A stretch of DNA of 64,000 bases from Verrucomicrobiia bacterium (GTDB lineage Bacteria > Verrucomicrobiota > Verrucomicrobiia > Verrucomicrobiales > Akkermansiaceae), in assembly GCA_947462875.1 (NCBI GenBank), contig CANHQJ010000001.1, positions 1 to 64,000 of the forward strand, read 5' to 3'. The position numbers and the translations under genes were made by a program. The notes beneath the pieces were generated by a model. That model made no database searches, was not told the origin of the DNA, and was given only the letters and a program-made list of their open reading frames with translations. Positions 1-1,038 of the stretch are shown one piece after another. The stretch's first letter is position 1. Each line of letters begins with the position of its first letter.

Positions 1-50
1 GGTTCAAACCCCACCGGCCCTACTTTATCTGATTTCGTATTATTTTCCTA
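1..50 (+). repeat. tRNA-derived 90-bp repeat, copy 1 (cut by window start)
   Basis: This is the 3' part of the unit that follows at 51-140. It begins in the T-arm (loop TTCAAAC), continues through a CGGCCCT acceptor-like end and a 30-bp AT-rich spacer, and differs from the next copy at two spacer positions. The array must extend upstream of the window. Confidence 0.85.
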
Positions 51-140
51 GGCTGGTTAGAGCAGCCCCGACTCGTCGGGGTTGGTCGTGGGTTCAAACC
101 CCACCGGCCCTACTTTATCTGATTTCGCATAATTTTCCTA
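51..140 (+). repeat. tRNA-derived 90-bp repeat, copy 2
   Basis: The unit holds a D-arm half (GGCTGGTTAGAGCAG), a 16-bp near-palindrome at 66-81 where an anticodon arm would be (arms CCCCGAC/GTCGGGG), a variable-loop-like TTGGTC, a good T-arm (GTGGG, TTCAAAC, CCCAC), the acceptor 3' strand CGGCCCT and a 30-bp spacer. The acceptor 5' strand and the 5' D-stem are absent, so it cannot fold as a whole tRNA. The period to the neighbouring copies is exactly 90 bp. Confidence 0.85.
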
Positions 141-204
141 GGCTGGTTAGAGCAGCCCCGACATGTCGGGGTTGGTCGTGGGTTCGAACCTCACCGGCCC
201 TACT
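141..204 (+). repeat. tRNA-derived repeat, copy 3, next to the nuclease gene
   Basis: Same tRNA-like part as copy 2, with central base changes that make the 16-bp palindrome at 156-171 perfect (CCCCGACATGTCGGGG). Two substitutions lie in the T-arm (TTCGAAC, CTCAC). After the acceptor-like end the usual spacer is replaced by a short leader into the GIY-YIG reading frame, whose ATG is at 216. Confidence 0.85.
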
Positions 205-215
205 ACTCAAAAACA

Positions 216-458
216 ATGGCTTGGGTCTACATGATGAGAGGAACGACTGGACGGTTCTATATAGGAGCCACCGAAGATCTTCAGGCTCGTATCGCTAGGC
301 ATCAAACGGGTATGGTTTATTCTACCAAGCGACTCGGCTTGCCCCTTGAATTCGTTGCCTCTCGTGAATTCAATACCATCGGAGAAGCTTATGCCATGGA
401 GAAAAAGCTCAAGGCTTGGAAAAATCCCTCCAAGTCACTAGCATTCTTACGCGGTTAG
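216..458 (+). CDS. Small single-domain GIY-YIG nuclease, UPF0213-like
   Basis: An 80-residue protein that is nearly all GIY-YIG domain: VYMM near the N terminus, then FYIGATEDLQARIARH with the YIG strand and the catalytic-type Arg, then a Glu in the GEAYAMEKKLKAWK helix. Stand-alone proteins of this size are common in Bacteroidota and Verrucomicrobiota; the substrate is unknown. The gene is enclosed by tRNA-derived repeats: copy 3 ends about 12 bp before the start, and its last codons and stop (TTA CGC GGT TAG) merge into the D-arm half of the copy at 453-512. No Shine-Dalgarno sequence is visible. The arrangement suggests gene and repeat move or amplify together; this is inference. Confidence 0.85.
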   Translation: MAWVYMMRGTTGRFYIGATEDLQARIARHQTGMVYSTKRLGLPLEFVASREFNTIGEAYAMEKKLKAWKNPSKSLAFLRG

Positions 459-512
459 AGCAGCCCCGACTCGTCGGGGTTGGTCCAGGGTTCAAATCCC
501 TGCGGGCCCACT
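453..512 (+). repeat. tRNA-like 3' fragment downstream of the nuclease gene
   Basis: It starts with GGTTAGAGCAG and carries the same near-palindrome at 464-479. It then has a different but well-formed T-arm (CAGGG, TTCAAAT, CCCTG) and the acceptor 3' strand CGGGCCC with discriminator A. The T-arm and acceptor differ from copies 1-3, as if copied from another tRNA gene or kept from the original target. The 5' tRNA half is replaced by the end of the GIY-YIG gene. Expression as a functional tRNA is unlikely. Confidence 0.75.
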
Positions 513-630
513 TTTGAGAGTTTTTACTGTCTTTTCGCCTGGAGTGGATTTTGATTGAACGGGCGCGGGAATCGGGTAGGAAAGAGTTGTTTGCGCGAAG
601 ACGCATGTAACACCTAACACCTCTATTTTT

Positions 631-1038
631 ATGTTCAAAGAATTTAAAGAATTCGCCCTGAAGGGAAACTTGATCGATCTGTCCGTGGGCTTTGTCATGG
701 GAGCCGCGTTTACGAAATTTTCCGGATCTTTCATCGATGACCTGATCATGCCGTTTGTGGCGAAGGCGAGCAGTGGGGCGGATTTTTCCAATGCCTACAT
801 TTCCCTTTCGGAGAAAGTCCCCGCAGGCTTGGCGCTGGTGGATGCCAAGAAGCTCGGTCCTGTGGTGGCCTGGGGGAATTTTGTCTCGATCGGGATCAAT
901 TTCCTGATCGTCGCCTTTGTGATGTTCCTGGTCGTGAAGGCGATGAACAAACTGAAGAAAAAAGAAGCGGAAGCGCCCGCCGCTACGCCTGCACAGGAAG
1001 TCCTGCTCACGGAGATCCGCGATTTGTTGAAAAAATAA
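631..1038 (+). CDS. mscL: Large-conductance mechanosensitive channel MscL
   Basis: 135 residues, the usual MscL length. The inner-membrane homopentamer opens under membrane tension to release solutes in hypo-osmotic shock. The N-terminal helix MFKEFKEFALKGN is typical, followed by TM1 (about 15-45), a periplasmic loop, TM2 (about 88-110, NFVSIGINFLIVAFVMFLV) and a basic C-terminal helix ending in the family-like LLTEIRDLL. The ATG follows a pyrimidine-rich leader without Shine-Dalgarno. truA starts 20 bp downstream on the same strand. Confidence 0.95.
   Translation: MFKEFKEFALKGNLIDLSVGFVMGAAFTKFSGSFIDDLIMPFVAKASSGADFSNAYISLSEKVPAGLALVDAKKLGPVVAWGNFVSIGINFLIVAFVMFLVVKAMNKLKKKEAEAPAATPAQEVLLTEIRDLLKK

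Follow-up and report, generated by a model that had tools for sequence, protein, structure and literature searches.

The locus at the start of the window, a stretch of 64,000 nucleotides beginning contig C1 of a Verrucomicrobiia genome (Akkermansiaceae; assembly GCA_947462875.1, G000 below), is probably a copy of a minimal selfish element whose family is widespread; its GIY-YIG nuclease would cut tRNA genes in or near the T-arm, and recombination would insert and amplify the element. The anatomy of these elements, their association with tRNA genes, switching between isotypes, tandem units, distal ends that come from another tRNA allele or isotype, and purifying selection on the gene are observed, and are taken up in turn below.

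The array at the start of the window

Base 1 of the window is the first base of C1. The 90-bp period described in the original prediction holds, as positions 1-90 and 91-180 are 96% identical. The "three exact copies" of that description do not; the array consists of two near-complete units, an edge remnant (1-23) and a third pseudo-tRNA of 90% identity (Table 1). Strong matches to the unit in the genome are confined to C1:1-514 and the end of contig C22 (E 1e-6 to 1e-28), and all remaining matches have E > 0.03, which places the repeats beyond chance.

Table 1. Features at the start of the window
Feature	Position	Strand	Remark
T-arm 3' part and acceptor, remnant of a pseudo-tRNA-Met	1..23	+	cut by contig edge
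Spacer of gene-less 90-bp unit, TTTATCTGATTTCGTATTATTTTCCTA	24..50	+	
Pseudo-tRNA-Met 1: D-arm half, palindrome for anticodon arm, T-arm, acceptor	51..113	+	
Palindrome CCCCGACTCGTCGGGG in place of anticodon arm, pseudo-tRNA-Met 1	66..81	no strand	
Pseudo-tRNA-Met 2, directly before GIY-YIG gene	about 141..206	+	90-94% identical to pseudo-tRNA-Met 1
Palindrome CCCCGACATGTCGGGG in pseudo-tRNA-Met 2	156..171	no strand	
GIY-YIG nuclease gene, 80 aa	216..458	+	12 bp after last T-arm/acceptor
Distal pseudo-tRNA-Met, source of the gene's stop codon	about 453..514	+	
Palindrome CCCCGACTCGTCGGGG in distal pseudo-tRNA-Met	464..479	no strand	
Flanking ORF, mscL-like (read from sequence)	631..1038	+	downstream flank, outside element

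An ARAGORN scan of the window yields no functional tRNA. The parental gene, which upstream extension had been expected to reveal, lies across an assembly gap: an intact tRNA-Met(CAT) at G000:C22:76021-76094 (= L018:2022-2095) continues into the same 90-bp array up to the contig end. Since C22 ends in this way opposite the start of C1, the assembly broke inside one array, whose order is tRNA-Met, gene-less units, GIY-YIG unit, distal pseudo-tRNA. The spacer of the gene-less unit also follows the intact tRNA-Met on C22 and is present in the congener G033, which has an ortholog of the mscL-like flanking ORF as well.

The junction between the gene and the copy that follows it (453-514) is as first read. 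The stop codon TAG (456-458) lies within the D-arm sequence GGTTAG (453-458) of that copy, which is 89% identical to the first pseudo-tRNA and has a different T-arm and acceptor, CCAGGGTTCAAATCCCTGCGGGCCCA.

Pseudo-tRNAs and the palindrome swap

Each unit in the window keeps the 3' half of the tRNA-Met D-stem to position 27 and resumes at position 43, from where it runs to the 3' end. Alignment to the intact tRNA-Met shows that the anticodon stem-loop, GGGACTCATAATCCC, is exactly exchanged for CCCCGACTCGTCGGGG. The palindrome of the original prediction is thus real and sits exactly at the place of the anticodon arm, whereas its "tRNA 3' portion" has to be replaced by a tRNA-Met gene with a swapped anticodon arm, not one cut at random.

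The palindrome has the form CCCCGA..TCGGGG in the window and [C/T]CCCGA(n)TCGGG[G/A] in general, at the same tRNA coordinates across isotypes. The swap is found with tRNA-Lys (L137, L141), with tRNA-Ala in Dehalococcoidia/Chloroflexi (L144, L147) and with tRNA-Val in Flavobacteriia (L152, L155), and a tRNA-Asn version stands upstream of the gene in an Ignavibacteriae genome (L149). The palindrome follows the gene in 11 of 12 loci of the window's architecture (type I, see below), against 1 occurrence per 160,789 bp of control DNA. Its conservation across isotypes and in these loci makes it a conserved part of the element rather than a decayed anticodon arm. A tally of 11/288 obtained with our first pattern is no measure of prevalence, because that pattern was overly strict and misses GAGCAGCCCCGA.

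Pseudo-tRNAs on the two sides are truncated reciprocally. Those upstream mostly retain their 5' end and stop at -5 to +8 of T54 (13/13); those downstream of an intact tRNA have lost theirs, and most continue exactly to the 3' end. In two Chloroflexi loci (L145, L147), upstream of tRNA-Ala, a second CCCGA palindrome occupies the T-loop of a pseudo-tRNA-Ala, so the hairpin may insert into tRNA loops generally.

A minimal GIY-YIG nuclease

The small gene (ORF 216-458) does encode a GIY-YIG protein, as predicted. Residues 1-72 of 80 match PF01541 (E = 1.3e-12), the only domain matched, and Y5, Y15, G17, R25, H29 and E62 are invariant in 12 homologues. The structure model (pLDDT 95.7) consists of the GIY-YIG fold alone, and the protein is predicted to be a bare catalytic domain of the SLX1/UPF0213 kind. 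UPF0213/YhbQ and SLX1 share this minimal domain and are the nearest solved structures by sequence and fold, with I-TevI and UvrC weaker. Proteins of the family have 80-100 aa and no additional DNA-binding domain, unlike I-TevI, which carries one. Matches to PHROG homing endonucleases are weak (phrog_5123, E = 0.0053 for the window protein; best 0.00089), and the best match to TIGR01453 in the family has E = 2.5e-5. A domain search finds no HUH/Y1 transposase domain in the window protein. The gene is under purifying selection, with dN/dS of 0.03-0.11 in the 15 closest pairs listed.

Two architectures

The family has two architectures. In type I, the clade of the window, the gene begins 3-46 bp after the tRNA and ends within a pseudo-tRNA; its 3' end is fused to tRNA position 5-23, and the TAG of the pseudo-tRNA is often its stop codon. 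In type II, the larger clade, the gene lies about 80-400 bp after the tRNA, behind a palindromic leader, and the left end of the element, (CCA)[T/G]CCTTCGC, begins exactly at the tRNA 3' terminus. From position 3 after the CCA, successive positions agree with C in 60, T in 62, T in 59, C in 59, G in 55 and C in 49 of 67 loci. The motif is present in 47/67 type II loci vs 5/32 other tRNAs (Fisher p = 3e-7; shuffle expectation 0.6 of 67). At tRNA-Ser elements it makes up one arm, the first, of an imperfect palindrome of 68 bp whose start lies within the CCA. A general test for a hairpin starting at the CCA, which was wrongly anchored at CCACCA, gave a weak result (p = 0.03); the real left-end signal is the conserved CCTTCGC rather than any hairpin at the CCA. 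Some type II copies close with 19-20 nt copied from a tRNA 3' end. Such a copy is clear after the gene in just 4/64 type II loci vs 0/64 in the reversed control, so the right end of type II is undefined. The two types can meet, as in L138, where a type II start, CCATCCTTCGC, stands directly behind a type I pseudo-tRNA.

Distribution and association with tRNA genes

A profile of 12 homologues (A1; cut-off E <= 1e-8) has matches in 168 of 387 Verrucomicrobiota genomes (43%), and the family is present in at least three other phyla. A search for carriers among viruses, phages, viral contigs and plasmids gave none, with one weak plasmid match. An artefact was considered and rejected, as the element recurs in single-contig genomes (G048, G177, G208, G349, G352).

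Association was counted for 105 distinct homologues with at least 700 bp of upstream sequence. In 78 of them an intact tRNA or tmRNA gene of the same orientation ends within the 700 bp before the gene, against 1/105 with one at that distance on the opposite strand and 3/105 with one downstream on the same strand. The genes of relatives thus have tRNA flanks in the great majority of cases, as the window gene does. Integrase islands lying in between account for some of the 27 homologues that have no intact tRNA upstream (for example G033). As a control, UvrC genes of the same genomes were within 700 bp of a tRNA in 0/20 cases, one of them having a tRNA 2 kb off. The YhbQ/UPF0213-like paralogues of these genomes differ from the family in the same respect: neither they nor other small GIY-YIG genes there are linked to tRNAs, they score lower with the family HMM, and the window gene is no YhbQ ortholog.

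The neighboring tRNA is intact in every counted case and the gene lies beside it, outside any intron or intein, so the pattern is not that of a group I or other tRNA intron. Nor are the flanks confined to a single locus. Partners carry 23 labels, 22 tRNA anticodons and tmRNA, the most frequent being Ala (19), tmRNA (13), Ser (11), Met (9), Leu (6), Val (6) and Pro (6), with Lys, Phe, SeC, Glu, Gln, Asp and Arg rarer. Since T-arm, acceptor and CCA are common to tRNAs and tmRNA, target recognition most likely takes place there.

Two further observations concern individual partners. As a host, tmRNA is about as frequent, with its 13 cases, as any single anticodon type; these hosts include L063, L078, L079, L154, L199, L210, L231 and L234. 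At tRNA-Leu(GAG), five congeneric species (G162, G208, G241, G352, G432) have the upstream flank, the tRNA and the GIY-YIG gene in common, and alignment of the other four to the query ends right after the gene.

Evidence of movement

On a tree of 129 proteins that rests on 79 columns and has many open forks, at least 39 changes of isotype are required, the least possible number being 13 and the average of shuffles 57. The elements thus switch isotype often, but not at random. Within the window genome, the copies behind tRNA-Ser(GGA) (C2) and tRNA-Ser(GCT) (C15) share 90% identity over a stretch that starts inside the tRNA 3' end and takes in most of the gene, and the distal end of the Ser-GGA copy, AATCCCTCTCGCTCCGTCA, is the Ser-GCT version. 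Likewise, the Ser-CGA copy in G023 ends in a Ser-GGA-type 3' end; copies in that genome share ~260 bp past the distal tRNA copy, which a model of simple units leaves unexplained. In the window, the 3' half of the distal pseudo-tRNA differs from the adjacent tRNA-Met and equals the native tRNA-Met of the congeners G051, G059 and G088, so two different tRNA alleles met at this locus. In G033, which has one gene-less unit, that unit bears this distal end as well.

Tandem duplication extends to the gene itself. Behind tRNA-Ala in G260 stand two [gene + pseudo-tRNA-Ala] units of 329 bp, 100% identical, and a truncated third, and the gene is duplicated in L137 and in Rubritalea marina (L136). Isotype changes, tandem units and the copies at two tRNA-Ser genes together support the original prediction that the element moves or amplifies and has tRNA genes as its targets. 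Elsewhere in G260 (L156, L174), three to four gene-less pseudo-tRNA-Pro units of 88-99-bp period end exactly at an intact tRNA-Pro; the stretch fetched around these arrays has no GIY-YIG gene.

These data also bear on whether this could be an ordinary host gene that is transcribed together with tRNAs and acts in their quality control or in RNA cleavage, the pseudo-tRNAs serving as decoys or regulatory RNAs. Such a function would suit the purifying selection and a position almost always on the tRNA's strand and often only 6-20 bp away, and a GIY-YIG/TrmH-like fusion is on record, reported by Dunin-Horkawicz et al. (PMC1564403). It is nonetheless very improbable for a gene that is confined to fewer than half of the phylum's genomes (168/387), occurs in several copies and tandem duplicates per genome, has tmRNA among its partners and has changed isotype so many times.

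At the orthologous Ser-GGA site, G000, G023 and G051 have the element directly against the CCA, and most congeners carry it at this site, which is compatible with vertical descent. G010 alone lacks both the element at this site and any GIY-YIG gene of the family. Two other candidates for an empty site did not hold. The element of G033 seemed to have no tRNA because a 13-kb integrase island separates the two, and G042 was probably misjudged as well, as it has the left end of the same island. In G033 the island occupies 2004-15057 of L322 (reverse complement), between tRNA-Ser(GGA) and the element, with TCCGCCA at its far end; its ORFs, as read from the sequence, are tyrosine-recombinase-like, primase-like and restriction/methylase-like.

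The island illustrates how the family could be passive cargo of tRNA integration hot spots, carried by tyrosine-recombinase islands. Both use the same tRNA ends, and an integrase lies ~1 kb from two of the genes (G000 C29, G185). Tyrosine-recombinase elements that target tRNAs also resemble the family in sitting at tRNA 3' ends, leaving the tRNA intact and carrying pieces of its 3' end. The reading is, however, largely refuted and hardly credible by now: across the complete genomes tested, the PF00589 gene nearest to most copies is tens to hundreds of kb away, no copies of tRNA 3' ends convincingly bound a 20-kb island, and the elements have conserved termini of their own that abut the tRNA exactly. 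A large island with the element as its cargo was rejected on these grounds. The family further differs from such elements in having no integrase, no att copy at the far end and a total size of about 0.3-0.8 kb, and in that one small nuclease family serves tmRNA and many anticodon types.

Proposed mechanism and relation to known systems

The reading that we prefer, a selfish element that cuts in or near the T-arm, can be laid out as follows. The element comprises a free-standing GIY-YIG gene and short hairpins, on the same strand behind an intact tRNA or tmRNA gene, and its nuclease may be expressed by read-through from the tRNA promoter. The enzyme would cut tRNA genes at or close to the T-arm, which tRNAs and tmRNA have in common. 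Repair by recombination against an element-bearing copy would then insert the gene together with the 3' part of a tRNA behind the new tRNA. Alternatively, repair may amplify the unit in tandem, giving rise to the 90-bp array, some of whose units would have lost the gene. The palindrome may be a recognition hairpin, or may shield the element's own copy; as tandem arrays have intact T-loops, self-cutting must be restrained somehow. The distal copies at the Ser sites look donor-derived, whereas simple homing with a crossover in the T-arm predicts recipient-derived ones; the window fits either.

Free-standing GIY-YIG homing enzymes beside tRNAs are already known, and the only close case found is SegB of T-even phages. 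SegB is a free-standing GIY-YIG enzyme tightly linked to phage tRNA genes, cuts inside these genes with a preference for the motif RAWTSGAAC, and drives tandem amplification of tRNA and segB, the 3' end of segB being fused by microhomology to the 5' part of a tRNA (PMC13096335). By our own reading, the reverse complement of the motif, GTTCSAWTY, is the T-loop consensus; the text of PMC13096335 does not mention the T-loop. Events of the SegB type would leave the anatomy of type I, with the 3' end of the gene fused to a tRNA and a TAG stop. This precedent and the reciprocal truncation of the pseudo-tRNAs favor cutting in or near the T-arm. SegB resembles the window family in its GIY-YIG catalysis, its place beside tRNA genes of many isotypes and its tandem repeats of tRNA and gene. 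It differs in being phage-borne and larger, with a weak sequence relationship, and the sections consulted on it report neither a pseudo-tRNA with a replaced anticodon arm nor a conserved element end.

SegB also lends some interest to a defence or toxin module at tRNA genes, either a nuclease toxin with the pseudo-tRNA as its RNA antitoxin or an anti-phage function through tRNA dosage. Four members have weak PADLOC candidate matches (PDC-S14, E about 7e-5), and SegB-type amplification increases tRNA dosage against tRNA-cutting defences (PMC13096335). Such a module is very improbable here, as the window protein has no PADLOC match, there is no partner gene, and pseudo-tRNAs without an anticodon arm are unable to increase tRNA dosage.

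The main rival to T-arm cutting and recombination is a single-strand hairpin or junction route, suggested by the SLX1-like nature of the bare domain and by the palindromic form of the conserved ends. An SLX1-like nuclease would recognize hairpins or the cloverleaf and move a single strand to sites abutting a CCA, in the manner of IS200/IS605. A tRNA gene folded in single-stranded DNA forms a cloverleaf, that is, a four-way junction, and the best structural relatives of the protein, UPF0213 and SLX1, are nucleases of branched DNA. The conserved left-terminal hairpin abuts the CCA, no target-site duplication is seen, the element brings the donor's tRNA 3' end along, and the palindrome is conserved in 11 of the 12 type I loci. 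This route would nevertheless require a ligating partner, since GIY-YIG enzymes are not known to rejoin DNA; moreover, the right end of type II is undefined, and plain recombination makes tandem arrays too. We regard it as unlikely on balance. REP/RAYT and IS200/IS605 systems share with the family a small nuclease, conserved palindromes and arrays of gene-less derivatives, but the family has no HUH/Y1 transposase domain and docks at a fixed place, the tRNA end.

A further parallel to the array of the window is E. coli tyrT, where 178-bp tandem repeats follow the tRNA, each with the tRNA-Tyr 3' end. These repeats are not known to have a GIY-YIG gene or a palindrome swap.

A search of open-access full texts (a scope outside which bioRxiv and most subscription papers fall) turned up no account of GIY-YIG genes that follow tRNA or tmRNA genes in bacteria, and none of pseudo-tRNAs with a replaced anticodon arm. 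On the strength of its docking rule, its conserved termini and the swapped arm of its pseudo-tRNAs, the family could rank as a class of its own. Tentatively, and with the chances somewhat short of even, it would represent a bacterial mobile element of a new class, one of the smallest autonomous ones known, which docks on tRNA and tmRNA genes generally (through T-arm, CCA or cloverleaf DNA), using them as site and promoter, is mobilized by a minimal GIY-YIG nuclease, and has a conserved terminus of its own and a pseudo-tRNA with a recognition hairpin in place of the anticodon arm. If true, tRNA genes would be the home of common minimal selfish elements in addition to being integrase targets. 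The elements would account for tRNA-like repeats and pseudo-tRNAs in draft genomes and for some contig breaks at tRNAs, and would be a natural chromosomal counterpart to the SegB amplification in phage.

Isolated tRNA-Met halves

Isolated 5' halves of tRNA-Met (positions 1-40) were encountered at L113:6803, L114:8365, L116:525, L120:2986, L124:426, L126:388, L127:370, L129:360 and L130:437. In most of these loci the half is followed by similar sequence with 'atgcatccttttt...ggatgcac', and in L113 and L114 it lies 6-8 kb from an intact tRNA-Met. The halves look like traces of an island family whose integration site is the anticodon loop, with the 5' half staying behind.
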